From positions 1-26,322 of IMG/VR virus record IMGVR_UViG_3300010149_000139: DNA of 26,322 nucleotides. The stretch is one strand, 5' to 3'. Below are positions 2 to 26,322 of the stretch, piece by piece (positions within the stretch are counted from its first letter, which is position 1; each line of letters opens with the position of its first letter). The position numbers were made by a program, and so were the translations under genes. The notes under the pieces are model-generated. The model did not search any database, had not been told where the DNA came from, and saw only the letters and a list, made by a program, of their open reading frames with translations. This DNA comes from a virus.

Positions 2-3000
2 GACACAATAGCTTCTAAAGTTACTCAATCAAATCAAGCATTAGATTCCGCTAAAGTTCTTCGAGAACAATTAGGTGCTTTAGGACAGAGAATCAATGAT
101 AGAGATGACTATCAAATCTCCCAACAAGAGAAAATTGAAACCATTAAGAAGAAGATCAATTCATTAGACTTTGAAAAAAATGGACTTGTAGGTAAAGCAG
201 CAGAAGAAAAAGAAAGGGAAATAGAAGCACTAGTTGAAGAAGAAATCAGGCTAGAAAAAATATTAGAATCTTCTAACAAAATTTTTGAAAAACAAAAAGC
301 TAAAAGTAATCAACTAGAAGAAGACGCACAAAACTTAGAAACCTTATCTAGTAATTATAAAGATCAAGCAGATTTTTCAACAGAAATACTAAATACTGCA
401 AAAGAATATAAAAAAGAAATTGAAGGAACTGTTGATGCTGCCGGAGAACTCAACAAAAAAGTAGAAGCTGTAAATCAAGCAGGAAATAGCTTACTTAAGT
501 CTTTCTCAGAATTCGGTTCTAAAATAGGGGGTATGATACCTGTGTTTGGTGATTTATTTCAAACAGTATTTGGTGAATTAGGACAGGCACAAGGTTTATT
601 TGAAACTGCTGTAGCACAGGGTACTAGTAAGGCAGGAGCTAGATATAAAGCATTAACCGGGACTATTAAAGCTCTTACTCTCGCAGCAGCAGCTTCTTTT
701 GCATCATTAGCATTTCAAGGCGCAAAAACTGCATCTGAAGCATTTAAAATAGTTAAGCAAGGTATAGGAGGAGGTCTTATAGATGCTTCTAAAGCGATGA
801 GCTCAGCAAGTGCAGCAGCAGGTGAAATGGGAATACCCCTTTCCGAAGCAGCCGGCTATATAGGTCAAATGAATAGTGCGTTAGGTACTTCATTAGGATT
901 TTCCGGCAAGCAAGTAGCTACATTTGGTAAGCTTACTAGGAACATGGGCGTTTCTGGAGAAGCAGCAGCTAAGTTATTTAAGTTCGCTGTTAAGACCGGA
1001 ACATCATACGAAGACATGGCGGCAAACGTTGCAGGAACAACGGAAAAGCTTAACGCTATGAACGGTACAGCAGTTGCACCACAAGCTGTATTCGAAGAGA
1101 TGGGAAGTGCTTCTCAGACGATTTTACGTAACATGAAAGATAACCCAGATGCTTTAATAAAAGCAGCAGCAGGTGCAAGAGCTATGGGTATGGAAATGAA
1201 TAGAATCGCTGATGCAGCAGAATCTACATTAGACTTTGAGAGTTCTATGGCCAAAGAGATGGAAGCTGAGTTAATGCTTGGAAAAGAACTTAATTTAGAT
1301 AAGTTAAGAGCAGCAGCAGCTACCGGTGATCAAGTTACCATGCAAGAAGAAATGAAACGTCTTGTTATGGAAAACAAAGACGCTTTAGAAGGTAACGTAT
1401 TAGCTCAAGGAATGATGGCTGATACTTTAGGTATTAGTAAGGAAGAGCTTAATAAAATGCTTAATACGACAGAAGATCAAGCGAAGATGGCTGAACAAGA
1501 TGCTGCTCGTAAAGAAGCTAATGCTAAAAATGAGAAGAAAACAGCAAGAGAATTAGGTGAACAGCAATTAAAAGTATTTAAATCAATAAATTCTTTATCA
1601 GATAGGATAGCTAAATTTCAAGAAAGTCTTTCGTTAGGTGCATATAAATTCTTCAATCTTATTAGAGATGCTTTTGACCCTAAAGATATTATGGGGTCAT
1701 TAGGTAGAATAAAAGACTTAGTAATAAAGACATTTAAAGATGCGTTTACCGGAGGTGATACAGTATTCAAAAATACGCTAGGTAAAGGAAGTATGTTAGG
1801 TATGTTACTCGGCGCAGCTACAGTAACCGGTGGAGCATTAACAATAGGGTTCAAAGGTCTTTCTGCTATAGGTAGTATTTTTAAGAAAATGAGAGGTACT
1901 CCTATGATGCCAATGTTTGTAAAAAATATAGGGGATAAAACTGCTGGTATGTTCGGCAAACTTACCTCTATGTTTAAAAAGAAAGAAGGTGGAGCTGCCG
2001 CTGCCGGAGGAGGAGGAATATTAAGCAAGCTTACATCAGTATTTAAGAAGAAAGGTTCTGGAGATTTAGTAAAATCTGCATCATCTCCTTCCGGTTTTAG
2101 AGACAAAATGGGTAAATTTGCAAAAGCACCAGGTAAGTCTGCAGCAGCAGGCGCTGCCGGTGGTGGAGGTGGTTTAGCAGGAGTAGGTAAAAGTATTGGA
2201 GGATTCGCAAAAGGAATAGGAAAAGGATTTGAAGGGCTAATGAAAGGTTTAGCTAACGGTATTAAAGCATTTGGTAATCCAGTTATTTTAAAAGGTGCTG
2301 CTATATTAAGTGGTACTATAGCAATAATTGGTGCAGGTATTGCAGGAGCTTCTTGGTTGATGGGTAAAGCGTTACCATCATTGGCTGAAGGAATGGAATC
2401 AATTGCAGAATTAGACGGTTCTGCTCTACTAAAAGCAGGAGCTGGAATGGCAGCAGTCGGTGTTGGACTTACCGCTATGGCAGCAGGAACAGCAGCACAG
2501 GCAGTTGGTGGATTAATGGGAGCTATCGGATCATTCTTTGGCGGCGACGGCATTGATGAAATGCTCAAAAAGGTAGAGAAGTTTGGTAAAGATTACAGCT
2601 TTGATGCCGGTAAAATAGAAAATAATGCCAGAGGAGTAGTAGCTTATGCTTTAGCAATGGGAGCATTAGCAGGAGGTGCAGGAGCTTCTGCTGTAGCAGG
2701 ATTAGCAAGTATTGGGGGTAGTCTAGTTGAAGGGTTAGGTAGCTTTTTAGGAGCCGCTCCTCCAATGGATAAAGTACAGGAATTCGGTAAGTATAACTTA
2801 GATGCTGATAAAATTGAAAATAACGCTCGTGCTGTTGCTGGATATGCATTAGGAATGGCAGCTTTAGCTGGAGGTTCTGCAGGTAGTGCAATAGCTTCTA
2901 TAGCAGGAACTGCTGGTGCTTTAGCAGATGGTATTACAGGACTACTAGGTGGACAGTTACCTTTAGATAAAGTAAGTAATTTTCAAAAATACAATTTTGA

Positions 3001-4348
3001 CCCCAAAAAAGTTGAAAATAATGCCTCAGCAGTAGCAAGTTATGCACTAGGAATGGCTGCTTTAGCAGGTGGTTCTGCAGGAAGCACTTTAGCAAGTTTA
3101 GCAAATGTTGGAGGAGCTTTAGCAGATGGATTAGTAGGGTTGTTCGGCGGACCTCTACCTTTAGATAAAGTAGACAATTTTCAAAAGTATAATTTTGATC
3201 CTAAAAAAGTTAAAAACAATGCTTCAGCAGTAGCAAGTTATGCATTAGGAATGGCAGCTTTAGCTGGTGGTTCTGCAGCAGGTTCAATAGCTTCATTAGC
3301 TAACATAGCAGGCAGTGTAGCGGATGGACTAGTAGGATTTTTTGGAGGAACTCTTCCTTTAGATAAGGTTAAGAATTTTGAAGGATATGATTTTGACCCA
3401 GTAAAGATTAAAAATAATGCAGATGCAGTTTCTGCTTATGCCATAGCAATGGCCAAATTAGGTGGCTCAGAAGCAGGTAGTCTTTTAGGTTCAATTGGTA
3501 ATATAGGCTCTCAGTTAGTTAACGGTATTGCTGGATTTTTCGGTGCAGAAACAGGCATACCGTATGCTAAAATAAAAGAATTAGGTGAAGCAGGTTTAGA
3601 TGCTGAAAAGATATCCAGTAATGCTACAGCATTAGCAGCTTATGCTAAAGCAATGTCTGCATTAAATGATGTACCAGCAGGATTTTTCAAATCTCTCGGT
3701 AAAGCAGGTGCAGCATTAGTTGAGGGAATAGTAGGAATGTTTGGAGGTTCAAGCGGTATACCTTACGAGAAAATAAACGAATTTGCAAATGCTAAATTAG
3801 AAACTGAAAAAATAATTACTAACGCAGAAGCTTTACAAGCATTTGGTAAAGCAATGTCAAGCTTAGAAGATTTTGACGATCATACTGACGATTTTGACGA
3901 CGGTGTAAGCGACTTAAATTCAGGTATAAAAAAATTCAATAAACTTAAAGATATAGATACTACAAAAATTGAATCTTTAAGAACATCAATGCTTGCTATA
4001 AAAGATGCTACTTCCATAGATTTATCAAATGCTGCTAGTGTATTGCAAAATTTAGAAAAATTTGCCGACACGGTAGGTAAAGGAGTAATAAAGGTAGATA
4101 TAGCAGCTAAAACAATATTTAGCGAAGAACTAGAAGGACTAACTACTACTATAAATGAATCCTCTAATAGAGAATTAGCAGAACTTAAAAAAATAAATAA
4201 AGAACAAACTCAAGAGCATAGAAAAGAAATGCAAGAATTAAGAAGACAGACAATGTTACTTGCAGAGCAACTTGATCCTTCAAGAAGAAAAACAGTTATT
4301 AATATGGATGGATTTAGAGTAGGTAAAGCTTTAACATCGAGATACTAA
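2..4348 (+). CDS. Tail tape-measure-like protein, 5' partial (at least 1448 aa)
   Basis: The reading frame is already open at base 2 and has no stop before the first ATG at 533, so at least 177 codons precede that ATG and the true start lies left of the window. The upstream part encodes a charged, Glu/Lys-rich coiled-coil-like stretch (about bases 120-480). Downstream come Ala/Gly-rich helical segments, strongly hydrophobic stretches (for example around bases 1780-1880 and 2270-2380), Gly/Ala/Lys linkers around 1980-2220, seven tandem repeats of about 66 residues (2558-3874) and a second Glu/Lys-rich helix near the C-terminus (about 4120-4270). Great length, alternation of coiled coil and hydrophobic helices, and position directly before baseplate-type genes fit a tape measure, which sets tail length and is ejected with DNA. 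T4 gp29 is far shorter (about 590 aa). The family call is by architecture, not by a diagnostic motif; a membrane-active virion protein is an alternative. Confidence 0.72.
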   Translation, partial: DTIASKVTQSNQALDSAKVLREQLGALGQRINDRDDYQISQQEKIETIKKKINSLDFEKNGLVGKAAEEKEREIEALVEEEIRLEKILESSNKIFEKQKAKSNQLEEDAQNLETLSSNYKDQADFSTEILNTAKEYKKEIEGTVDAAGELNKKVEAVNQAGNSLLKSFSEFGSKIGGMIPVFGDLFQTVFGELGQAQGLFETAVAQGTSKAGARYKALTGTIKALTLAAAASFASLAFQGAKTASEAFKIVKQGIGGGLIDASKAMSSASAAAGEMGIPLSEAAGYIGQMNSALGTSLGFSGKQVATFGKLTRNMGVSGEAAAKLFKFAVKTGTSYEDMAANVAGTTEKLNAMNGTAVAPQAVFEEMGSASQTILRNMKDNPDALIKAAAGARAMGMEMNRIADAAESTLDFESSMAKEMEAELMLGKELNLDKLRAAAATGDQVTMQEEMKRLVMENKDALEGNVLAQGMMADTLGISKEELNKMLNTTEDQAKMAEQDAARKEANAKNEKKTARELGEQQLKVFKSINSLSDRIAKFQESLSLGAYKFFNLIRDAFDPKDIMGSLGRIKDLVIKTFKDAFTGGDTVFKNTLGKGSMLGMLLGAATVTGGALTIGFKGLSAIGSIFKKMRGTPMMPMFVKNIGDKTAGMFGKLTSMFKKKEGGAAAAGGGGILSKLTSVFKKKGSGDLVKSASSPSGFRDKMGKFAKAPGKSAAAGAAGGGGGLAGVGKSIGGFAKGIGKGFEGLMKGLANGIKAFGNPVILKGAAILSGTIAIIGAGIAGASWLMGKALPSLAEGMESIAELDGSALLKAGAGMAAVGVGLTAMAAGTAAQAVGGLMGAIGSFFGGDGIDEMLKKVEKFGKDYSFDAGKIENNARGVVAYALAMGALAGGAGASAVAGLASIGGSLVEGLGSFLGAAPPMDKVQEFGKYNLDADKIENNARAVAGYALGMAALAGGSAGSAIASIAGTAGALADGITGLLGGQLPLDKVSNFQKYNFDPKKVENNASAVASYALGMAALAGGSAGSTLASLANVGGALADGLVGLFGGPLPLDKVDNFQKYNFDPKKVKNNASAVASYALGMAALAGGSAAGSIASLANIAGSVADGLVGFFGGTLPLDKVKNFEGYDFDPVKIKNNADAVSAYAIAMAKLGGSEAGSLLGSIGNIGSQLVNGIAGFFGAETGIPYAKIKELGEAGLDAEKISSNATALAAYAKAMSALNDVPAGFFKSLGKAGAALVEGIVGMFGGSSGIPYEKINEFANAKLETEKIITNAEALQAFGKAMSSLEDFDDHTDDFDDGVSDLNSGIKKFNKLKDIDTTKIESLRTSMLAIKDATSIDLSNAASVLQNLEKFADTVGKGVIKVDIAAKTIFSEELEGLTTTINESSNRELAELKKINKEQTQEHRKEMQELRRQTMLLAEQLDPSRRKTVINMDGFRVGKALTSRY
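2558..3874 (+). repeat. Seven in-frame tandem repeats of about 66 residues inside the tape-measure gene
   Basis: Units begin at 2558, 2759, 2957, 3155, 3353, 3557 and 3758, with spacings of 201, 198, 198, 198, 204 and 201 bases, all multiples of three. Each unit opens with a short motif like LPLDKV or IPYEKI, continues with a charged segment ending in a (K/D)I/V-x-NNA-like step, then a hydrophobic AYALGMAAL-type helix and a Gly/Ala-rich stretch ending in a GxxGFFGG-like turn. Units 3 and 4 are nearly identical. Unit 7 is cut short after its helix. The repeats look like duplication followed by divergence under selection to keep the frame. Confidence 0.9.
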
Positions 4349-6137: not shown

Positions 6138-8393
6138 ATGGCAAAAGAAGGAGTATTTTTTAAAAGACCTCTACCGTCACTTTCTAGTATTGACCCAGGA
6201 GTTAGAGAACAATTAGAAATTAGAGAAAAGCTTTATAGTAAGGAACTTGGGAATCTAGATCCAAATTTTCTTGCACACTACCTAAATGGTAATAATTCTT
6301 TTGTAAAACTAACTTCTGGCATTGAAGTTGAAGGAATTCCAAATGCTGCGCATAATAATATACTTTTAGGAGGAGTTTTATATAAAGGAGGAACTAAAAG
6401 AGCAGGTATAAGTTCGGATTCTTTTTTAGGGACAGATAAAAACGGTAATAGTGCAGCTTACAATTTTGCACAAGGTGTATCAGGAGATGTTGCGAATAAA
6501 GGAGCAGAAGGCTATGTTCCAATGCCGGGTATAATTTCTTTTGATGTAAAAAATAGAGGTAATAGTGGATTTACTAGAGAAGTTTCTATGCAAGTAAAAT
6601 GCTTTAGTTTAGAACAACTTTCTATTATTGAAAAACTTTATTTAAGACCAGGTTTTAAATGCTTAGTAGAATGGGGGCATGTAGTATATGCAACAGGAAC
6701 AGCAAATGAAATGTCTCCAGTATTTGGACCTCCTGAAACTATATTTTCTGATAAAGTACCCCAAAAAAATCAACTAGCAGAAGAAGCTATAAAAAAGAAA
6801 GCAGGAGGAGATGAGGAAGGGAATAACTTAGGTTTAATAGGAGATTCTGGACACAATTATGATTATATGATTGGACTGATCAAAAATTATAATTGGACTT
6901 ACGAAAGAGATGGGTATATAGTTGATATAGAACTATTAGGTAAGGGTGCTATATCTACTTTTTTAAAAGAAATGCATGGCGGCACAGAACATGATGATAG
7001 CCCTAAAGAAGAGGAAGGCGTTGAATTTATTGCTACGAACGAAAGTGCATTCGGAAATATATTAAAAAGAATATCACAAGCTGATACCAAAGGTAAACAA
7101 GATAATAAAGATAAGGATAGCATTGTAGAAGAATGCGACATGGGGAAGATTAATAAAAGCCTTAAGAACTATAAGAGTCAAATGGACGGAATAACTGAGC
7201 TTTTAAATACAGAAGGGGATAGTTACGAATTTAAAGTGTATAGGGCAGGATTTGCCGACGTTAATAGAGAAGCAGGAAATAAAAATTTTAATTTTATTAG
7301 TATGCGATTCTTATTAGGAATGGTAAATTACTTTTTTTTAGAAAGACCTGATTCATCAGATATAGTACCGGAAGGTAAGTTTAATACAACTCTTAAAGAA
7401 GATTTCTATCTAACTTACCCTGAACACTTCAGTATAGACCCTAATGTATGTTTACTACCTCAGCAGACTGGAAAATATGGACTAAAAACCGCTTCTATAC
7501 CAGGTACTAGAGATAAAGATAAAGGAGATATTATGGATATACAACTCTGTACTTCTTTTTTATATGAAAAATTTAAAGATATAACAGATAAAGGTAAAGG
7601 AACAGCAATTTCTAAGGATAAAAGCATTGGCGAGTATTTAAATACAGTGTTAGATAAGTTAACTGCTAGTTTAGGTAATATAAATGAATTTGTTCTATAT
7701 AATGACTTTTACCTTAAAAAAGAATTAGGACCTAGTAAAATCGTAGATTTACAAATTTTGCCAAGACCTGAAGGACAACCGGAAACATATAAAATGATAA
7801 TTCCGAAAGGTCCAAACTCTTTTGTAACAGAATTTCAATTTAATAGTGAACTTTCAAACTCTATGCTTAACCTTATAGTCAATCAAGCAATAGTTTCAGG
7901 TACGGACGCAGGTACAGCAACTACAACAGGTTTAGCTGCATTTAATACAGGAATAAAATCTAGGTTTACAACAGAACCGGATAATGAAGCAACTCAATAT
8001 GCTCAAAAAAGAGCAAAGAAAGCACAAGAGACCCAAGAGGCATTGGTAGATGAATTTACAAAAATCTTTGCAACTTTTAAATACGATGAAGAAGTAGTTG
8101 AAAAAGCTTATTCTAACGGTAGTGCATTAATAAGAAAAGAACTAAATGAATTTTTAAAAGATACAAAACCAAAAAGAGGGCATATCGGAGCAAAAGTAAC
8201 ACTCACTATGTTAGGTATCAGCGGATTAAAAGCTTTGCAATACTTTACTTTACCTGATGAAATACTACCTGCTTCTTATTCGGAAAATGGTATAAAAGTA
8301 GGATTTAGAATAGATAATGTTTCTCATGAAATAACAAATAACGTCTGGTATTCAACAATTGAAGCTAACGCAATGATATTATCACAAGGTTAA
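6138..8393 (+). CDS. Large baseplate-hub-like structural protein (751 aa)
   Basis: The N-terminal part contains LNGNNSFVKLTSGIEVEG (residues 49-66). It then has YVPMPGIISFDVKNRG (126-141), followed by a strand and SLEQLSIIEKLYLRPGFKCL (157-176) leading into VEWGH. This arrangement recurs in baseplate hub-type virion proteins of environmental T4-like phages. The middle is a long charged insertion with Lys/Asp/Glu stretches. The last 80 residues (LTMLGISGLKAL, then an LPDEILP turn and a V-x-H-x-I-x-NN-x-W strand) resemble the closing domain of hub proteins of the gp27/gpD kind. No lysozyme or metallopeptidase motif is visible, so a tail-lysin activity is not supported. It starts two bases after the LysM-like gene. 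Confidence 0.55.
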   Translation: MAKEGVFFKRPLPSLSSIDPGVREQLEIREKLYSKELGNLDPNFLAHYLNGNNSFVKLTSGIEVEGIPNAAHNNILLGGVLYKGGTKRAGISSDSFLGTDKNGNSAAYNFAQGVSGDVANKGAEGYVPMPGIISFDVKNRGNSGFTREVSMQVKCFSLEQLSIIEKLYLRPGFKCLVEWGHVVYATGTANEMSPVFGPPETIFSDKVPQKNQLAEEAIKKKAGGDEEGNNLGLIGDSGHNYDYMIGLIKNYNWTYERDGYIVDIELLGKGAISTFLKEMHGGTEHDDSPKEEEGVEFIATNESAFGNILKRISQADTKGKQDNKDKDSIVEECDMGKINKSLKNYKSQMDGITELLNTEGDSYEFKVYRAGFADVNREAGNKNFNFISMRFLLGMVNYFFLERPDSSDIVPEGKFNTTLKEDFYLTYPEHFSIDPNVCLLPQQTGKYGLKTASIPGTRDKDKGDIMDIQLCTSFLYEKFKDITDKGKGTAISKDKSIGEYLNTVLDKLTASLGNINEFVLYNDFYLKKELGPSKIVDLQILPRPEGQPETYKMIIPKGPNSFVTEFQFNSELSNSMLNLIVNQAIVSGTDAGTATTTGLAAFNTGIKSRFTTEPDNEATQYAQKRAKKAQETQEALVDEFTKIFATFKYDEEVVEKAYSNGSALIRKELNEFLKDTKPKRGHIGAKVTLTMLGISGLKALQYFTLPDEILPASYSENGIKVGFRIDNVSHEITNNVWYSTIEANAMILSQG

Positions 8394-8402
8394 AAATAAA
8401 AA

Positions 8403-8936
8403 ATGTACTTACCTAAATCAAAATATAAAGGACCTTTTACTGCTGCTTCTGGAGCAAAGAAAGTACTTGTGCTTGATACTAAAGAAGTATACAGCGGTAA
8501 GTATTTTGTTACTTATAAAGATGAATTATATGAAGGCAGGTTTCCTAAAGAAGCAGGACGTCAATTAATTTTTGAAAGTGAGCTTCTAAAAAGGGAAAAA
8601 GATAACCAAAAAGAATTAAAACCAAAACCAAGTTTAGTAGTACCTACTGAGAAAGATTACGAAAATAAAAAATTTAAAAGGTACTTTTCAAGAGATAAAC
8701 GATCCGGCAAAATTATTGAAGTAAACCTTAAGGAATTTAACAACATCAAAAAATACCCTTCGTTTACAGGATTAGAGTTAGATTGGTGGATAGAAGGTCC
8801 TGTTAATGATAAGTTATACAATAACTACTTATACAAAGGAGCCGCTACTCGAAACAAAGAAACTATAAATAAACATAAAAAATCATTCAGAGGTATAGAA
8901 GAATACTTATTTGCTTTAGATGAGTTTGTAGTTTAA
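8403..8936 (+). CDS. Putative virion structural protein (177 aa)
   Basis: The protein opens with YLPKSKYKGPFTAASGAK, followed by an EVYSGKYFVTYKDELYEGRF beta-rich segment. A start of this sort is common in small baseplate-region proteins of T4-like environmental phages, where a YxGxY-x(n)-G module forms a small beta domain. The rest is Lys/Asn-rich with a WWIEGP turn (about residues 128-133) and a C-terminal helix. It follows the hub-like gene by nine bases and is the last gene before the replication block. There is no signal peptide or membrane segment. The precise function is unknown; a tail or baseplate accessory role is inferred from position and from the start motif. Confidence 0.5.
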   Translation: MYLPKSKYKGPFTAASGAKKVLVLDTKEVYSGKYFVTYKDELYEGRFPKEAGRQLIFESELLKREKDNQKELKPKPSLVVPTEKDYENKKFKRYFSRDKRSGKIIEVNLKEFNNIKKYPSFTGLELDWWIEGPVNDKLYNNYLYKGAATRNKETINKHKKSFRGIEEYLFALDEFVV

Positions 8937-8943
8937 AATATTT

Positions 8944-8954
8944 TTCTTATATTA
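8944..8954 (+). promoter_or_regulatory. TTCTTATATTA motif upstream of the DNA polymerase gene
   Basis: This sequence sits in the 43-base gap between the tail module and the polymerase gene, 25 bases before its GTG start. It differs by one base from the motif at 10791 and 23375 (TTCGTATATTA) and resembles those at 10306 and 13774. It is a candidate -10-like promoter element for the replication block. No experimental support is available here. Confidence 0.35.
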
Positions 8955-8979
8955 TATTTAACTAAAAGGTTACAGTTAA

Positions 8980-10305
8980 GTGTTTTATATAATAGAAAAA
9001 AATAATAGCTTAGAAGCTATACAAAAGTTGATTAGGTTAGGATGTTATGTAGATATAATTCCAACTAATTTTAACTACCATCCAAAACTTACTTCAACAG
9101 TAGCAGTATACATAAAATTACTTCATTCAGATAAAGGTTATATAATTCCAATAGACCATAGTGAAGGACTCAACGTAGATAAAGACCGTGTCTATACTAT
9201 ACTATCCTCTGCAGAAAAACTATATACATTAAATAAAAAGGAATTACTATATCACTTTAATCTACAGGGTGCAATAGATCTCTCTCTGTTGTTTGCTATG
9301 AATAATTTCGATAGGCTAGAGTATAATAAACTTAATAAAACTGTTAATCCTTTTTATAGTAGGTATAAAGATACACCTACAGTAAATAAAATAATACCAA
9401 TCAGCAAACTATATGAATCATCAGAGAATATATATGAATCTATAAAAAGTGTGATAGAGTACGAAATACCATCTGGTTTTGACTTTTATAATAAGACTGC
9501 TACTAATGTATTTTTCTTACTAGAACAAACCGGAGTAGGTATAATTTACGATGCATTCAATAAAAACTTTAAACCTAAAAATCCCCTGTATAATACTTTA
9601 GATAATAAGTCATTAACGCAGTACAACCTATATAATGCTACCTCAAGACCTACTAATTCATTCAATAGTGTAAACTTCGCAGCAATTCCACATACTGAAG
9701 AGCATAGAAAATGTTTTAAGCCTGTAAATGATTATTTTGTAGAGTTTGACTTTGACGGATACCATTTAAGATTACTAGCAGAGCAAATTGAATATGAATT
9801 AACATCAGATTCAGCCCACAAGCAGCTAGCAAGACTTTATTTTAACAAAAAAGAAATTACTGATGACGAATACAAAGAAGCAAAGCAAATTAACTTTCAC
9901 GCAATTTATGGAAAAATACCCGACAAGTACTCTTTCCTTGAGATCTTTACAAGAATTGATGATTATATCAAAAAGTTATGGGAACGATACGAAAATGACG
10001 GAAAAATCTTGGCTCCAATTAGTAGAAAGCCTTTCACAACATCTCTCAAGAAAATGAATCCTCAGAAGTTAATGAACTATGTAATGCAATCTTTAGAAAC
10101 TTCGAGAAATGTAGTGATTTTAAAAGAATTACTAAAATACCTAAAAACTAAAAAAACAACTATAAGTCTATACACTTACGATTCTATTATTATGGATTTT
10201 AATAAAGAAGACGGGAAGGAAACACTTGAAAACATTAAATTGATTATGGAAGAAGGTGGCAAATACCCTGTCTCATTTAAGTACAGTAAAGACTTAAGTT
10301 TATGA
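8980..10305 (+). CDS. Family A DNA polymerase, polymerase domain only (441 aa, GTG start)
   Basis: The C-terminal half carries divergent family A motifs. Motif A is DFDGYHLRLLAE at residues 257-268, with catalytic Asp257. Motif B is KQINFHAIYG at 302-311, with Lys302, Phe306 and Tyr310 matching E. coli Pol I K758, F762 and Y766. Motif C is YTYDSI with Asp401. The Glu of the usual DYSQIE motif is replaced by His262, and the residue after the motif C Asp is Ser rather than Glu. The first 230 residues show no 3'-5' exonuclease motifs that I can recognise, so proofreading would have to come from another gene. An in-frame TAA directly precedes the GTG and the next in-frame ATG is about 107 codons downstream, so GTG is the likely start. 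AAAAGG and a GTTACA box lie just upstream. It heads the replication cluster. Confidence 0.8.
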   Translation: MFYIIEKNNSLEAIQKLIRLGCYVDIIPTNFNYHPKLTSTVAVYIKLLHSDKGYIIPIDHSEGLNVDKDRVYTILSSAEKLYTLNKKELLYHFNLQGAIDLSLLFAMNNFDRLEYNKLNKTVNPFYSRYKDTPTVNKIIPISKLYESSENIYESIKSVIEYEIPSGFDFYNKTATNVFFLLEQTGVGIIYDAFNKNFKPKNPLYNTLDNKSLTQYNLYNATSRPTNSFNSVNFAAIPHTEEHRKCFKPVNDYFVEFDFDGYHLRLLAEQIEYELTSDSAHKQLARLYFNKKEITDDEYKEAKQINFHAIYGKIPDKYSFLEIFTRIDDYIKKLWERYENDGKILAPISRKPFTTSLKKMNPQKLMNYVMQSLETSRNVVILKELLKYLKTKKTTISLYTYDSIIMDFNKEDGKETLENIKLIMEEGGKYPVSFKYSKDLSL

Positions 10306-18022: not shown

Positions 18023-18058
18023 TATTTATATTAAATGAGCTCAGTTTATATTAAATGA
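18023..18058 (+). promoter_or_regulatory. TATTTATA box and duplicated start region with a 7-codon leader ORF
   Basis: TTTATATTAAATGA occurs twice, exactly 20 bases apart (18025-18038 and 18045-18058). The second copy carries the ATG of the large surface-protein gene. The first provides an ATG at 18035 that opens a 7-codon ORF (MSSVYIK) whose TGA stop overlaps the real start as ATGA. A TATTTATA box (18023-18030) overlaps the first copy, and a GTTAT-AG-ATAAC inverted repeat (18011-18022) precedes it. This could be a promoter plus translational-coupling leader, or a recent 20-base duplication. Confidence 0.45.
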
Positions 18059-21000
18059 AGACAGTTAAAATAAAAAACCGGTCTATTGCCGCTGATATAA
18101 GTATTCTAAAAGTATATCATACATTTCTTGATAATAGTAACCTACTTACCACGGAAGCATCAGCTAGTGGAGTATTTACAGGTAAAGATTTATTTAATGG
18201 TATAGAGTTTCAAGTAGATGATGATGTAGATCAGTTTGTAATAGAAAATCTAGAACCAGCAGGCTGTGTTGGTGATGAATGTAACGTATGTACAAATATA
18301 GGCTCAGGTAGTATATCCGGAGAGTTTTCTTCTTCTAATTTTAGCTACTTTATACAACCAGGTAGATTCGGTACCGTAGAGTATAACGGTCAATATAATA
18401 GACTAATTTCAAGTTCTGATGATATTAATACTACTTTATTTACTCACAACCATTCAGTTTACGGTTCAGTTGAATTAACAGTAACACCTTCAGGTTCTTT
18501 TGAATTCGAAGGGTGGTACGATAATGTAGATAGAGTAGGAACTGCACTTTCAAATAACAGTACTGTAGTAATAACGCAAGATACAATAGATGGATTAGAT
18601 ATTCATTCAAATAATTGGTATGTAAAATATGAGAATAATGACCCTCTATTTAAATTAAATGCTATAGATGGAGAAAATATTACAACATTCACTACATCTT
18701 TAAATGAAAATAGTACCCCACATGAATTAGCTAAATTTTACTTTTCTGATATAGACGGAGATGCACTAACAGTCTCACTATCTCCAGATGCAGGAGGACA
18801 TTTTTCATTAACAACTAATTCAAATTATATATCACTTCAACAAGTTACATCATCTTTAGATTATGAAACTAAGACAGTATATAATATGTCAGTTAGTGTG
18901 AGTGATTCTGAAACCACTACATTGCTACCTATTACTGTAAATGTAATAGATAACCTACAACCTAATGTTGTTAATCAGACAATGCCTAATTTTGGGGAAA
19001 ATAATCCCGATGGTTTTTCTGCAGGAAATATAGCAACTACAGATCCGGAAGGTGATACCGTTACTTTATATAATATAACTTTACACGCTATTAAACTATC
19101 AGGTAAATCAATATCAGCATCCTTATATTCTGGATCAGGCTTTTCAGATCCAACCCCTGATGCTTTTGATATCTCACCTAGTGGAGCGATAACTAAGAAA
19201 AGCGGCGCTTTCCTTAATCATAGACTTATTAACGAATATGTTTACAAAGTTTTTGCGGATGATGATTATAATGACGGAACAGCATCCGCATTAATTACGA
19301 TACCTGTTATACCAGATGCTCAAACTGTTACCGTAACAGGAGATGGAGATAATGATGTGTATGTAGTAGAAACAGCACTTTCCGGATCTTCTGTATATGA
19401 CGATATTAGCGGAACTTCAGGTTCTATAGCTACATTTACTGCTAATATACCAGTTACATGGTCCGTAGATGTACCTCATAAGGTAAGCATAAATAACTCA
19501 GGAGAATTATCAGTTTCATCAGATATAAATAATAACTATAATGTAGGAGATACCTTTAGCGTATTAGTTACGGGTACAAGTAGTATTGGACGAACACATG
19601 ATATAGTAATTACGGTAAATATAACACAAGATCAAAGTCCGGCTACAATCACAGGTTTAGGAACATCTTCTTTTGCATATGTAATTGAATCAGCAGTAGA
19701 AGATGATTCTGTATATTTGAGTTCTAACGGATATTCAGGTACTGCATTAAAGTTTGAATCAGATCAAACACCTATAACTTGGTCTATTACACCGACTTCT
19801 AAATTAGAAATAGACTCTTCAGGATTTGTAACACTTGGATCAGACCTTTCAGGTTCTGCTTTCTTCCATCCACAAACTATTGCTAGTCAAGTAGTCGCAA
19901 CGAACCAGTTTGACGTTACTTCTTCTTTAGATTTTACATTGCAGATTACAGAAAATACTGCACCGGATATAATATTTAATAATCACGTTTCATCTTTTGA
20001 TACGAATTATGCAATAGCAAATAGAAGACTAGTTACAGCATCATTTAATGATGTGGAAGGAGATAGTATAAATCACGGTTCATTTACATTTACCGATACA
20101 TCAGGGCAATTAGATTATGTAAAAGCGGGAGATGTTTACTATATTTACGCACTAAATCCTCTATCAGCTAGTGCTTATTCTTTTGATATAGGAATTGCAG
20201 ATGAGCATGGATTCAGCCGAAATGAAGAAACACATACTATAAATGTAGGATTTGCACAAAATTATCCACCTACTATCACCTATAACAACCATACAGTAAA
20301 CTTATTTAGTAACTTAGCTGTTTCAGGTGCAACATTAGTAACTGCTTCAATAAGTGATACAGAAGGAGATCCAATAAACTATAGCTCTTTTACATTTATT
20401 GATCCATCAGGTGAATTAAATGCCGTTCAAGATAGTAGATCAGGCTACGAAGATATTTTCTATATACAAGCTAATCAAAATCTTACATCATTAGATTACG
20501 AGTTTACTGCTAGTGTTGCAGATAATCATGCTTTTGGAACATCAGATCATTCATTTACTTTACAAGGTTCCTCTACAGGTACATTGAGAAATAATAGCGT
20601 CTTTATAGTTGAAACAGGACTAACAGGCCTAGGATACGAAGCAACAAAAGGATTTGGATCAGGAGCATCAGCTTCATTAGATGTAATTTATTCTCCTAAC
20701 GTAGGAGGTCAGGTCGTACAAGCCTACACATCTACAAACCCAGCAGTACTTGTCGATAGCTTAGGTAATTTAACTTTAGGAGTAGATATGTCAACTACTA
20801 CATCCGGTTCAGGTGATACATATACTTCGGATATTACTTTTACAGACCAGTACGGTAATGTTGGGACAGGAGTTGTTGATGTAGAAGTTACTTACCCTAA
20901 TTCTGGTTCATACATAAGTTATTATGGTGTGCAGCCATCTAATGGTAAGGCATCAGGATTAGATGAAACCGGCGGTAACGGTACCGGTAGTTTAGAAATA

Positions 21001-23340
21001 AGAACTCAATACATAGAAGATGGTACTAATATAGCATTTGATTTTGCATCTTTAACCTCAGCAGCACTTAACCAGGATTTTACAGCATCAGATACTGAAT
21101 TTACAATAAATAATAACTCAGGTTCTATAACCATACTAGGTATTGGGGATATGCTTACAGAGGGAGCAGAAGTAATAACTGCATATTTAAAAGATTACAC
21201 AGGAGGAGTTGGAAATAATTTATATGATTCAAATGGTAATTTAATAACTAATAAATCAACTCATAACCCTTTTGATGATACAATCTCATTAAATATTTTT
21301 GATACAAGTAAAAGATACATAGGCTTAAGTCCCTCTCAAGGATCTGTAGCAGAAGGGCAATCAGTTACTTTTACATTACTAAGTCAAGGAGTTCCAAATG
21401 GTACAGAAGTTTTATTTAATATTGAATCAGGATCATCTGGTCAAGTTGATGCAAATGATTTTACTTTATCTTCGGATAGATTTGTAATGAACAACAATAC
21501 AGGTTCAGTAGATATTTCTATCAATACAGATGCTCTTGCTGAATCTAATGAGACATTAGGATTGCAGTTAGAACTATATGATTCGGAGAATAAGCTTACA
21601 GGTCAACTTTATAATCTTGTTACAGTACAAAATACAGATACAGATGCACCTACTATTACGATAACAGGCAATAATCCACATACACATGAAGTTAAAGGTA
21701 CCTACACTGATGCAGGAGCTACAGCAAGTGATACAGTTGATGGGAATCTTACTACTTCTATAGTTGTTACAAATAATGTTAATGATCAAGTATCAGGTTC
21801 ATACACAGTTGTCTACGATGTAAGTGATTCTGCAGGTAATACAGCACAAGCAACTCGAACAGTAAACGTAGTTGATACATCACCACCGGTGATAACTCTA
21901 ATAGGTACTTCATCTATTCAAGTATACCAAGGACAGACTTACACCGATGCAGGAGCAACAGCACAAGATGCATATGAAGGAAATATCACTTCAGATATAG
22001 TAACAACAAATCCAGTAAATACATCTAATTTAGGAACTTACCTGGTAAGGTATAATGTTGATGATGCATCTGGTAATTCAGCTACAGAAGTAACTAGAAC
22101 AGTAAACGTAGTTGTTAATAACATACCAATCATAAGTGGAAATCAACAAGACTATACAATAGAAGTTGGGAGCACTTTTGGTAGTGCAGAAGCATTAGAA
22201 GGTGTTTCAGCATCAGATACAGAAGATGGAAATATAACAGCAGACATAGTACTTACTAACCCAGTAAATACAGCAGTAGTTGGTACTTATACAGTTAGGT
22301 ATAATGTTGATGACTCATCAGGAAATTCAGCAGTAGAGAAAACTACTACGGTATATGTTGTGGATACCACTGCACCTGTCATTACTATGGTAGGTTCTTC
22401 ATCTATAGACATAAATGTAGGTGCTACATATACCGATGCAGGAGCAACCGCATTAGATAATTATGACGGTAATATTACTGGAAACATAACCACAACAAAC
22501 AGTGTTAATACATCTATAGCAGGGTCCTACACAGTTAAATATAACGTATCTGACTCAGAAGGTAATGCAGCAACCGAAGTTGTAAGAACAGTAAACGTAA
22601 TTGCCGGACCAAGAGAGTTTAGTTATGGGTTATCTAACTATAGAATAGATTTTGAGTTTATAGCTTCAGAAAATGACGGTAATGACAGATATCATACTGT
22701 AGAAAAAGATTCCATTTCCGGTCAAGGAACATACAGTCCTAACATCGGAGGTGATGAGACTTGGTCTCCAGTTAATCCAGTAGAGAACACTAGACATCAA
22801 GGCCTGCATAACATTAAAAAGGAATCTAATAAAGGTGTATTTGATGGGTATTATACTTGGCATCAACTATCAGGAAGTAAAGGTGGTGAGGAAGGACGTA
22901 ATAACGATTTAACCGGAGGAGCTAGATCAAAAGATTTAGCACACTCTATTACATATAGTTCTGATATAGATAACAACCCAGGTGGTGTATATAGCTTCGA
23001 CTACCAATCTACAACAAAATTAGACATAACAGTGTCTTATGAAGTAGATACAACTGCTAGTTTAGATATAGTATTTGGAGTAGCAATATGGAATGAGAAT
23101 TCATCAGGGTACCCTCCAGAAGAACTAACTAATCAATGGACCATTTATAAAAGTTATGGAAATTATTTAAATGCTCAAGGCGTTGAAACATCAACACCCG
23201 GTAGTTATGCGGTAAGTGGTATTGGAGATGAAGTAGCTGTATTCGGAACTAATAGTCCAAAGATTTGGGTTAAACCTGTAGTAGGATTTTTCGATCCATC
23301 AGGAAGCGCCGGAGGAGAAGGCGGCGGAGATCCAACATAA
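18055..23340 (+). CDS. Giant Ig/cadherin-like repeat surface protein (1761 aa)
   Basis: The protein is nearly all beta-rich and Ser/Thr/Asn/Asp-rich, with very few Cys (a CVGDECNVC cluster near residue 72). There is no signal peptide, fitting a virion protein rather than a secreted host protein. Visible modules in order: a unique N-terminal domain (1-200); cadherin-like repeats with DIDGD and DPEGD acidic motifs (about 200-420); three copies of a module beginning VYVVETAL, AYVIESAV and VFIVETGL, with two EGD-containing repeats between the second and third; two Calx-beta-like domains (about 960-1195); four DUF5011-type Ig domains (1197-1516); and a unique C-terminal domain with a Gly-rich end (SAGGEGGG). 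Such proteins bind cell-surface glycans or decorate capsids and tails, often with calcium. It lies between nrdA and thioredoxin, away from the tail module. Receptor binding or capsid decoration is inferred. Confidence 0.75.
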   Translation: MKTVKIKNRSIAADISILKVYHTFLDNSNLLTTEASASGVFTGKDLFNGIEFQVDDDVDQFVIENLEPAGCVGDECNVCTNIGSGSISGEFSSSNFSYFIQPGRFGTVEYNGQYNRLISSSDDINTTLFTHNHSVYGSVELTVTPSGSFEFEGWYDNVDRVGTALSNNSTVVITQDTIDGLDIHSNNWYVKYENNDPLFKLNAIDGENITTFTTSLNENSTPHELAKFYFSDIDGDALTVSLSPDAGGHFSLTTNSNYISLQQVTSSLDYETKTVYNMSVSVSDSETTTLLPITVNVIDNLQPNVVNQTMPNFGENNPDGFSAGNIATTDPEGDTVTLYNITLHAIKLSGKSISASLYSGSGFSDPTPDAFDISPSGAITKKSGAFLNHRLINEYVYKVFADDDYNDGTASALITIPVIPDAQTVTVTGDGDNDVYVVETALSGSSVYDDISGTSGSIATFTANIPVTWSVDVPHKVSINNSGELSVSSDINNNYNVGDTFSVLVTGTSSIGRTHDIVITVNITQDQSPATITGLGTSSFAYVIESAVEDDSVYLSSNGYSGTALKFESDQTPITWSITPTSKLEIDSSGFVTLGSDLSGSAFFHPQTIASQVVATNQFDVTSSLDFTLQITENTAPDIIFNNHVSSFDTNYAIANRRLVTASFNDVEGDSINHGSFTFTDTSGQLDYVKAGDVYYIYALNPLSASAYSFDIGIADEHGFSRNEETHTINVGFAQNYPPTITYNNHTVNLFSNLAVSGATLVTASISDTEGDPINYSSFTFIDPSGELNAVQDSRSGYEDIFYIQANQNLTSLDYEFTASVADNHAFGTSDHSFTLQGSSTGTLRNNSVFIVETGLTGLGYEATKGFGSGASASLDVIYSPNVGGQVVQAYTSTNPAVLVDSLGNLTLGVDMSTTTSGSGDTYTSDITFTDQYGNVGTGVVDVEVTYPNSGSYISYYGVQPSNGKASGLDETGGNGTGSLEIRTQYIEDGTNIAFDFASLTSAALNQDFTASDTEFTINNNSGSITILGIGDMLTEGAEVITAYLKDYTGGVGNNLYDSNGNLITNKSTHNPFDDTISLNIFDTSKRYIGLSPSQGSVAEGQSVTFTLLSQGVPNGTEVLFNIESGSSGQVDANDFTLSSDRFVMNNNTGSVDISINTDALAESNETLGLQLELYDSENKLTGQLYNLVTVQNTDTDAPTITITGNNPHTHEVKGTYTDAGATASDTVDGNLTTSIVVTNNVNDQVSGSYTVVYDVSDSAGNTAQATRTVNVVDTSPPVITLIGTSSIQVYQGQTYTDAGATAQDAYEGNITSDIVTTNPVNTSNLGTYLVRYNVDDASGNSATEVTRTVNVVVNNIPIISGNQQDYTIEVGSTFGSAEALEGVSASDTEDGNITADIVLTNPVNTAVVGTYTVRYNVDDSSGNSAVEKTTTVYVVDTTAPVITMVGSSSIDINVGATYTDAGATALDNYDGNITGNITTTNSVNTSIAGSYTVKYNVSDSEGNAATEVVRTVNVIAGPREFSYGLSNYRIDFEFIASENDGNDRYHTVEKDSISGQGTYSPNIGGDETWSPVNPVENTRHQGLHNIKKESNKGVFDGYYTWHQLSGSKGGEEGRNNDLTGGARSKDLAHSITYSSDIDNNPGGVYSFDYQSTTKLDITVSYEVDTTASLDIVFGVAIWNENSSGYPPEELTNQWTIYKSYGNYLNAQGVETSTPGSYAVSGIGDEVAVFGTNSPKIWVKPVVGFFDPSGSAGGEGGGDPT
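21643..22602 (+). repeat. Four tandem DUF5011-type Ig-like domains of about 80 residues
   Basis: Units start at residues 1197, 1277, 1358 and 1441 of the surface protein (bases 21643, 21883, 22126 and 22375). Each has the pattern APVIT-like strand, a (Y/F)TDAGATA-type or related acidic segment, D-G-N-(I/L)-T, TNPVNT-like turn, G-(T/S)-Y-x-V-x-Y-x-V and D-x-(S/A)-GN, closing with a TVNVV-like strand. The third unit is the most divergent at its start. This pattern is typical of bacterial Ig-like DUF5011 modules in adhesins. Confidence 0.85.
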
Positions 23341-25016: not shown

Positions 25017-25160
25017 ATGCAATCACAGGATTCAAACAATGGAAACACCCAACTAAACTCTGAAAGAGCAAAAGTAAACCAGAGAGTAAGTAGATACTCT
25101 CTTATGGGTAAATCTAGAAAAGTTTATTGGGACGGAGTAAGAAGAAACCGCACCATTTAA
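25017..25160 (+). CDS. Small basic protein (47 aa) just before the tRNA genes
   Basis: The ORF starts at an ATG 26 bases after the queC-like stop and ends six bases before the first tRNA-like sequence. The N-terminal third is Gln/Asn/Ser-rich. The C-terminal part is Arg/Lys-rich with aromatic residues (SRYSLMGKSRKVYWDGVRRN), suggesting nucleic-acid binding. No family is recognised and no Shine-Dalgarno is present. It fills an otherwise empty interval and has a coherent composition, but at this length a chance ORF cannot be excluded. Confidence 0.4.
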   Translation: MQSQDSNNGNTQLNSERAKVNQRVSRYSLMGKSRKVYWDGVRRNRTI

Positions 25161-25166
25161 ACCAAG

Positions 25167-25277
25167 TGCCGAGTACCTCAGTAGGTAGAGGGTTCTGACT
25201 TAACCTTATGCATAATAATTCGATCGTTAAAAGCTAAAGGGTCAGAAAAGTCGGGGGTTCGAGTCCCCTCTCGGTTA
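25167..25277 (+). tRNA. tRNA-Pro(UGG)-like gene interrupted in the anticodon loop
   Basis: The tRNA parts read as follows. Acceptor TGCCGAG (25167-25173) faces CTCGGTT (25270-25276), with a U1-U72 mismatch and a G-U pair. TA fills positions 8-9. The D-arm is CCTC-AGTAGGTA-GAGG. The anticodon stem is TTCTG (25193-25197) with CAGAA (25243-25247). The variable loop is AAGTC, and the T-arm is GGGGG-TTCGAGT-CCCCT. The discriminator is A at 25277 and CCA is not encoded. The anticodon loop region is 45 bases instead of 7. Joining ACT to GGGT after removing 25201-25238 gives anticodon UGG with G37, as in tRNA-Pro, and the GTCGG-x-GGTTCGA body also resembles tRNA-Pro. Position 33 is then C instead of the near-universal U. 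It may be a spliced tRNA, a tRNA-like RNA or a decayed gene. Confidence 0.6.
25201..25238 (+). other. 38-nt insertion in the tRNA anticodon loop (candidate intron)
   Basis: The insertion would fall directly after U34, a position known for group I introns in other bacterial tRNAs, but at 38 bases it is far too short for a group I or II ribozyme. It is A/T-rich and contains the palindromes TTATGCATAA (25206-25215) and CGATCG (25221-25226). TTAAC (25200-25204) can pair with GTTAA (25226-25230), stacking directly on an extended 7-bp anticodon stem (25193-25199 with 25241-25247). The exact boundaries are ambiguous by one or two bases. Confidence 0.5.
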
Positions 25278-25427: not shown

Positions 25428-26322
25428 ATGGCAGATTTCACCAGCAATAAGATTAATAAGACTTATCAACGGATCGTCCAAGTTGATAATGCAACATTAC
25501 AAGACGGATACGGAAGAATCTTATCAGGTTCTATGGCCGATCTTACAGTTAATGGCGTTCTTCAAGTAACAGGAAGTTTAAACGTAGATGGACCAGTAAC
25601 AGCTAGAAGATTTATAGCAACACAGGTTACATCCTCTATAATATATGAATCCGGTTCTACTAAGTACGGTGATACTCAAGACGATAACCACACATTTACA
25701 GGTAGTGTTTTAATCTCTGGTAGTGAAAATTTAGTAGGAGATTTAACAATAACAGGAAGTACATTTCAAGTCGGGAACACTACGCAAATAGGTAGCATAA
25801 ACCTTAGCGGGGATATTGATCAAACAGGTAATTACAGTTTAATTGGAAACATTGAACAAACCGGAAGTATAGAACTACTAGGAGATTCGGATCAAAAAGG
25901 AGATTATGATCTTGAAGGTGATTTTACACATACTGGGATTAATTCTCATGTAGGATTATATAAACATACAGGTGATACCGAACAAGTAGGGGCATTAAAA
26001 CAAACCGGAGATACTGAAAAAACAGGACGTACAGACCACACTGGACGGTTCAATAATATAGGTGATTTTGATTTAATAGGTGGCTTAAGACATACAGGAA
26101 ATCAAATACATGTAGGAAAAAGCACACAAGAAGGAGATTCAGCATTAATTGGGAAATCTAATATCACAGGTAGTTTAGTAACTTCAGGTTCTCTAACTTC
26201 CATTGGAGTAACAACATTATCCGGTGAAGTTGCAATTACAGGAAGTACAGACATACATATTTCCGGAAGCATTATTCAGGACGGTACTTTAATAAGAACA
26301 GGTAGTACTTCACAAACTGGTG
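25428..26322 (+). CDS. Fibre-like structural protein with hexapeptide repeats, 3' partial (at least 298 aa)
   Basis: The frame is open from the ATG to the window edge. The N-terminal 90 residues (with SNKINKTYQRIVQVDNA, RILSGSMADL and QVTSSIIYESGSTKYGD) resemble the attachment part of phage fibre or appendage proteins, where a YESGSTKFGD-like step followed by HTFTGSV is common. From residue 93 the protein consists of consecutive six-residue units with invariant Gly at position six (30 units), then a slightly longer unit and further hexapeptides to the edge. This suggests an elongated beta-solenoid or trimeric beta-helix shaft. There is no signal peptide and no cysteine in the visible part. 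It starts 71 bases after the tRNA genes. The likely role is a tail fibre, spike or whisker; the tip lies outside the window. Confidence 0.75.
   Translation, partial: MADFTSNKINKTYQRIVQVDNATLQDGYGRILSGSMADLTVNGVLQVTGSLNVDGPVTARRFIATQVTSSIIYESGSTKYGDTQDDNHTFTGSVLISGSENLVGDLTITGSTFQVGNTTQIGSINLSGDIDQTGNYSLIGNIEQTGSIELLGDSDQKGDYDLEGDFTHTGINSHVGLYKHTGDTEQVGALKQTGDTEKTGRTDHTGRFNNIGDFDLIGGLRHTGNQIHVGKSTQEGDSALIGKSNITGSLVTSGSLTSIGVTTLSGEVAITGSTDIHISGSIIQDGTLIRTGSTSQTG
25704..26243 (+). repeat. Thirty uninterrupted hexapeptide (18-bp) repeats with invariant Gly
   Basis: Thirty successive codon hexads each end in a glycine codon, without a single insertion or deletion. Examples are SVLISG, DLTITG, NIEQTG, DTEQVG, RTDHTG and SNITG-type units. 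Position five is mostly Thr, Ile, Val or Ser, and position one is often Ser, Asp or Asn. At DNA level this appears as an 18-base period with recurrent ACAGG(A/T) steps. After 26243 there is one eight-residue unit (STDIHISG) and then three more hexapeptides before the window ends. Confidence 0.93.

Follow-up and report, generated by a model that had tools for sequence, protein, structure and literature searches.

The window analysed here comprises 26,322 bases of a marine phage (positions 1-26,322 of virus record IMGVR_UViG_3300010149_000139). Its gene set is that of a large tailed phage and includes a single-strand binding protein, a RecA-like protein, an exonuclease, and a DnaB-type helicase. 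The window's helicase shares 76% identity with its counterpart in Flavobacterium phage immuto. Ribonucleotide reductase, thioredoxin and QueC are also encoded. The last ORF of the window (25428-26321, + strand), 298 codons long and cut by the contig end, encodes a fibre-like protein. This gene is surrounded by metabolic genes and lies outside any tail-gene cluster. A second contig, L002, covers the final 8,895 bases of the window, agrees with them at 8,891, and ends at the identical place.

Several other features were noted in the window. The stretch at 2843-3420, within the gene for a 1448-residue tape-measure-like protein, is a tandem repeat with a 198-base unit in 2.9 copies. A 441-residue Pol A protein is encoded at 8980-10305; because its Pfam DNA_pol_A match covers part of the domain only, and because family A polymerase is encoded by two separate genes in immuto, a split polymerase is suggested. 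The 1761-residue protein encoded at 18055-23340, between the ribonucleotide reductase and thioredoxin genes, has bacterial Ig-like, HYR and cadherin domains and is likely another surface or adhesion protein. Closer to the fibre gene, 25017-25160 holds an ORF for a basic protein of 47 residues, and very similar DNA occurs at the matching place in contig L006. Finally, a tRNA-like element at 25167-25277 scored 40.6 bits against the Rfam tRNA model and was missed by ARAGORN. Its anticodon arm contains an insert of ~45 bases, for which an intron, a decayed gene, and an insertion are candidates; the matching stretch of L006 holds tRNA-Ala only.

The fibre-like protein contains 31 glycines in uninterrupted six-residue phase (residues 92, 98 ... 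272; 25701-26243, + strand). The first-pass annotation had reported thirty consecutive glycine-ended hexapeptides without an indel. Indeed, translation of 25704-26243 yielded exactly 30 six-residue units with Gly last in each and zero indels, the 31st phased glycine lying upstream. In 10,000 shuffles of the 298-residue protein, the longest phase-6 glycine run was 9. The sequence between the glycines varies as strongly as had been described: all 30 units are different, and their five non-Gly positions average 14% identity between units. Tandem Repeats Finder detected no DNA tandem array at 25701-26243. Because the units differ and no DNA tandem repeat was found, recent expansion of the array is excluded, in line with the structural origin that the annotation had favoured over recent duplication. 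Directly after the array is a lone eight-residue unit, GSTDIHIS (26241-26264, + strand). The hexapeptide phase then resumes with Gly 280, 286, 292, and 298 (26265-26321, + strand), where it is cut by the contig end; it continues in L006.

Within the units, Asp, Asn, or Ser directly follows the glycine in 20 of 30 cases, and the residue at +2 after Gly is bulky in 18 and small in 12. Position 4, two residues before the next glycine, is hydrophobic in 12 of the 30 units and His or Gln in 14. Three successive His layers would lie at residues 164-181. Glycine was absent from unit position 3, in agreement with the annotation's exclusion of collagen. A unit-lag test detected no three-unit periodicity (lag 3, p = 0.77 and 0.63); among the 12 lags tried, lag 4 had an identity p of 0.002 in the window and 0.02 in the L006 protein.

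Contig L006 encodes a complete relative of 479 residues (8001-9440), whose gene is identical on four IMG/VR contigs (L003-L006). Over the shared part, the two proteins are 89% identical. All 31 glycines of the array are kept in the relative: none of the 26 amino-acid differences there falls on a glycine, and an even spread would have put about 4 on them. The dN/dS ratio was 0.13 for the 298-residue protein as a whole and 0.23 within the repeats, and residues 182-248 were the most variable (dN/dS 0.37). The phased glycines of the relative form runs at 92-272 (31 glycines), 280-316 (7), 324-360 (7), and 397-415 (4). Between residues 92 and 360, the shaft comprises 44 units, with a spacing of six in 42 and of eight in two (272-279 and 316-323), consistent with the annotation's view that this is not the octapeptide repeat of T4 gp5. 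The annotation had also asked where the repeats end and whether a tip follows. In the relative, the 44 units are followed by a second copy of a 36-residue joint module (~361-396), four phase-6 glycines, and a small tip at the C-terminus, with ~60 residues beyond the last run. No HxH tip was found at this C-terminus, the full-length relative had no match to PF13884 (Peptidase_S74), and tblastn of the C-terminal 64 residues against phages yielded nothing useful. Searching 30 records (28 contigs from 80 helicase loci and two phages) with the 479-residue protein gave matches in six; this search yielded no orthologue in immuto. Downstream in L006 is a second fibre-like gene, encoding 582 residues; the joint module is common to both proteins.

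The N-terminal 55 residues (25428-25592, + strand) constitute a conserved domain in which 24 of 55 columns are invariant in five proteins. A search with these residues returned 13 loci encoding eight distinct proteins, two of which carry a hexapeptide shaft behind the domain and six of which carry another shaft, several of these being rich in ...SSSLDATFATDAQL... repeats. That the same N-terminus is joined to different shafts in six of eight proteins points to a mosaic fibre architecture, in which the N-terminal domain is probably the virion anchor. A tblastn search of the domain against phages returned nothing useful, and its profile matched no bacterial genome. The joint module, ...SxIIYxSGSTKxGDTxDDxHxFTGS (residues 56-91; 25593-25700, + strand), occurs twice in the full-length relative. 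Elsewhere it adjoins hexapeptide, collagen-like, and S74-ended fibre parts. In a search for the module, at least 559 of 599 stretches were confirmed, and the best 80, representing 77 loci, were retained. This best-scoring subset includes 72 module proteins outside this phage, near-identical copies among them; 7 of the 72 have an S74-like motif, and several others have collagen-like arrays. Peptidase_S74 was present in all four module proteins scanned, namely three with the S74-like motif and the L220 protein. Among isolated phages, the module was matched only in Microcystis phage Mel-JY01, in a gene annotated as a structural protein.

Comparison with PHROG families linked the protein to tail fibres. 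The full-length relative matched phrog_1699 (long tail fibre distal subunit) at 6e-7, phrog_28263 (tail fibre) at 1.8e-6, and phrog_4549 at 6e-4, and the window ORF matched phrog_28263 at 9e-5, scores that the repeat-rich sequence may inflate. The 582-residue downstream protein matched tail-fibre PHROGs at 9e-10 and 8e-9 as well as annotated tail-fibre proteins of marine phages. Pfam matched neither the window ORF nor the full-length relative. Two marks of tail-fibre membership were found: a family sequence match and a conserved N-terminus with exchangeable shafts. The description of the protein as fibre-like is therefore upheld by the PHROG families and the mosaic architecture. Since the gene is located outside the tail cluster, the proposed trimeric shaft might instead belong to a head or neck decoration (a whisker) or to a free surface-binding protein. 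The family links argue for the tail, though those families are themselves annotated by similarity, and we regard a position off the tail as unlikely.

Two single-chain AlphaFold2 predictions assigned a strand, roughly four residues long, to almost all hexapeptides, as anticipated by the annotation's proposal of one turn or strand per six residues. Both modelled the repeat as a self-closed β-solenoid at low to middling confidence, with mean pLDDT values of 53.5 and 57.5 and 70-82 in the best blocks. According to VIA-align, the nearest PDB folds were mostly single-chain right-handed β-helices (Z up to 17.8 and 16.4). PDB sequence searches returned zero matches at E ≤ 1 for the window ORF and nothing significant for the full-length relative, the best being a dockerin (E 0.029). 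The TP901-1 chimera 3da0 was near the top of the PDB lists, at E 0.19 with the family profile and 0.1 with the full-length protein, values non-significant alone; the aligned stretch reads GDETIA/GKKTFT/GNVEVN/GSLTLP. A repeat-only profile matched nothing in the PDB significantly, the 'Putative tail fiber protein' 9cuy/9mjn (E 5.6) having scattered similar units. Of the kinds of check that the annotation had proposed, structure prediction on a single chain yielded a low-confidence solenoid, and profile searches yielded no significant PDB match.

These models raise the question of a single-chain right-handed β-solenoid with three hexapeptides per 18-residue coil, like the two-partner-secretion adhesins, present as a monomer or as three chains side by side on the virion. 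It is in keeping with the one four-residue strand per unit of both solenoidal models and with the Z values of 13-18 obtained in VIA-align for HMW1, EtpA, and the β-helices of phage tailspikes. However, pLDDT was low over much of the chain, and at E ≤ 0.001 Foldseek matched nothing in the PDB or among viral entries, although such an absence excludes nothing. A three-sided coil of one chain should tend to three-unit periodicity and is disfavoured because none was found at lag 3: units three apart are dissimilar. Moreover, the 30 units run without a loop or indel, and AlphaFold, when given one chain of a trimeric helix, tends to fold it into a closed solenoid. Overall, we judge a single-chain coil quite unlikely.

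A left-handed hexapeptide helix of the acyltransferase or YdcK type, possibly in an enzyme or cargo protein, is very improbable. The annotation had set the acyltransferase repeat aside on its glycine pattern. That argument is weaker than stated because the glycine register equals that of YdcK-type left-handed helices, with V-x-G-[ND]-A-x repeats. Further, one weak tblastn match (H19) is to a phage repeat protein that is annotated as a putative acyltransferase and that we take to be YdcK-like. Nevertheless, the conclusion stood on other grounds: neither the window ORF nor the full-length relative had a Pfam hexapeptide match, the +2 residue is bulky in most units and small in 12 of 30, as compared to all 30 units of the YdcK-like protein, and His or Gln occupies 14 of 30 units at the position where that protein has hydrophobic residues only. 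Weak tblastn matches were obtained in Streptococcus, Curvibacter, and Bacteroides phages. The Curvibacter and Streptococcus phiST1 matches were set aside as both translations are YdcK-like, and the Bacteroides phage match was set aside as it is antisense to annotated genes.

A census of viral contigs was made with two patterns. The 20-glycine pattern matched at least 120 stretches. Among the matches listed, 81 loci were collagen-like or Gly-rich and 34 were non-collagen; rows rather than loci were classed, so one locus may fall in both classes. Of the 43 non-collagen rows listed, the share of distinct units reached 85% in only four: L198 (from the same phage), L147 and L178, which are candidate coding frames, and L133. 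The [HQ]-x-G pattern matched at least 119 stretches, and the best 60 of 114 rows were examined. Viral contigs L281, L289, L322, and L324 encode proteins with near-uniform GAETHTG/GVETHTG hexapeptide arrays; the L281 protein weakly matched phage tail-protein PHROGs.

The pattern search also found gpV-type proteins, which share the [HQ]-T-G unit with the window protein, as would befit a baseplate central spike of the gpV/gp5 kind instead of a fibre. In the five scanned, G-[DN]-x-x-[HQ]-T units occurred in diverse arrays of 6-12 glycines. Four of the five have Phage_base_V, Apex, or related N-terminal domains, and the fifth matched a baseplate-assembly PHROG. Both of the two proteins tested against solved spikes matched significantly, one to 3qr8 (1e-9) and the other to 9zd7 (2e-5) and 3pqi (1e-4). 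The His/Gln fraction of this set, 0.72, is biased because the search pattern already demands His or Gln at position 4. At positions 1-3 alone, the fit of the window protein to the gpV profile did not exceed background (-0.28 bits per unit); likewise, once the selected positions 4 and 5 are set aside, the window protein and the gpV set agree in their column statistics no better than background. The register control for this profile shows only that glycine phase matters. The comparison shows that this type of hexapeptide unit also belongs to trimeric phage spikes, which does not make the window protein a spike. The OB domain PF04717 and Apex PF18946 were absent from the window ORF (E ≤ 1) and the relative (E ≤ 0.1), the relative's C-terminus has no HxH tip, and the PHROG matches are to tail fibres. 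A central spike is accordingly the least probable of the alternatives.

We conclude that the protein is probably of tail-fibre type, with a shaft that would be a trimeric, triple-stranded β-helix. Counting against this reading are the AlphaFold2 solenoid, the lack of a significant PDB match or of a Pfam match, the His and Gln at the presumed inward positions, and the placement of the gene among metabolic genes. In the proposed arrangement, the N-terminal domain of ~55 residues would attach the protein to the particle and be followed by the short joint module and then a long, rigid shaft. Each hexapeptide would form one short β-strand, turning at a Gly-[Asp/Ser/Asn] corner. Three chains would intertwine such that each unit contributes one layer of a triangular triple-stranded β-helix, with position 4 of each unit pointing its side chain inward. 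The shaft of the relative would then have 44 layers, 42 of six residues and two of eight, and a length of ~21 nm at the strand spacing of 4.8 Å per layer. Beyond it would lie the second joint module, the four phase-6 glycines, and the small C-terminal tip. The shaft may determine reach and stiffness, and the tip or the neighbouring second fibre protein may contact the host surface.

With 31 glycines in perfect phase, a natural shaft of this kind would make the sequence rule of the fold plain and could act as a trimeric rod of adjustable length. For phage biology, the gene is a further example of shafts being exchanged on a conserved, probable anchor. Literature searches on hexapeptide repeat with tail fiber, on six-residue repeat, and on 9CUY found nothing. 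The annotation had placed the pattern outside described fibre motifs; this did not hold, as the consulted part of one paper describes a regular six-residue repeat forming an interlaced trimeric β-prism in the neck of the TP901-1 receptor-binding protein, residues 40-63 (PMC3893620), and gpV-type spikes have similar units. Because other phage fibres and spikes already follow its building principle, the architecture is an extreme case within a known kind rather than a new kind. What is new is mainly the length and regularity of the shaft and the His/Gln-rich, presumed core positions in the middle of the run.

The regular glycine hexapeptide that characterizes the TP901-1 neck, a short regular six-residue case (PMC3893620), is present in the window protein. 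The receptor-binding protein (BppL/ORF49; 3ejc, 3d8m, 3da0, 4v96) likewise has Gly first, Asp, Lys, Asn, or Ser second, and a strand per unit. However, the neck has four units as compared to 31 glycines in a row in the window and 44 units in the relative, its position 4 is hydrophobic in all four units as compared to 12 of 30, and overall similarity between the proteins is non-significant. The gpV-type spikes (P2 gpV 3qr8, phi92 gp138 3pqi, gp86 9zd7) are built with similar units, G-[DN]-x-x-[HQ]-T, and carry an OB-type or comparable domain at the N-terminus and, in many cases, an Apex motif, both of which are absent from the window protein. In the papers on gp5, gp12, and gp34, as far as the consulted parts go, triple β-helices are either octapeptide-regular or six-residue and irregular (PMC3004832, PMC5537660). 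The gp12 helix has about six residues per turn and no clear repeat (PMC3004832), and gp34 has Gly, Ser, and Asn in its turns (PMC5537660). According to these partial sources, both resemble the window protein in these respects but have a hydrophobic core and no clear sequence repeat, whereas the window protein is regular and His/Gln-rich, about half of its presumed inward positions (14 of 30) being His or Gln as compared to the hydrophobic cores of TP901-1 and gp34. The T4 gp5 spike, with its VxGxxxxx octapeptide, shares a long regular repeat in which Gly (position a) is followed by Asn or Asp (b) and the inward residue, Val at g, lies two before Gly, as described in the consulted part of PMC3004832. 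It has eight residues per unit, whereas the window family has six and only two eight-residue units. The Gly-[Asp/Asn/Ser] corner and the putative inward residue look like those of a gp5 repeat from which two residues have been removed. As measured against these partly consulted sources, we tentatively suggest that the shaft may be the longest uninterrupted and most regular six-residue triple-stranded β-helix known (44 layers, ~21 nm), with, in its middle section, a polar core of stacked His/Gln triplets, including the three His layers at 164-181, in which ions or water might be bound on the threefold axis, and a length tunable by the number of units.
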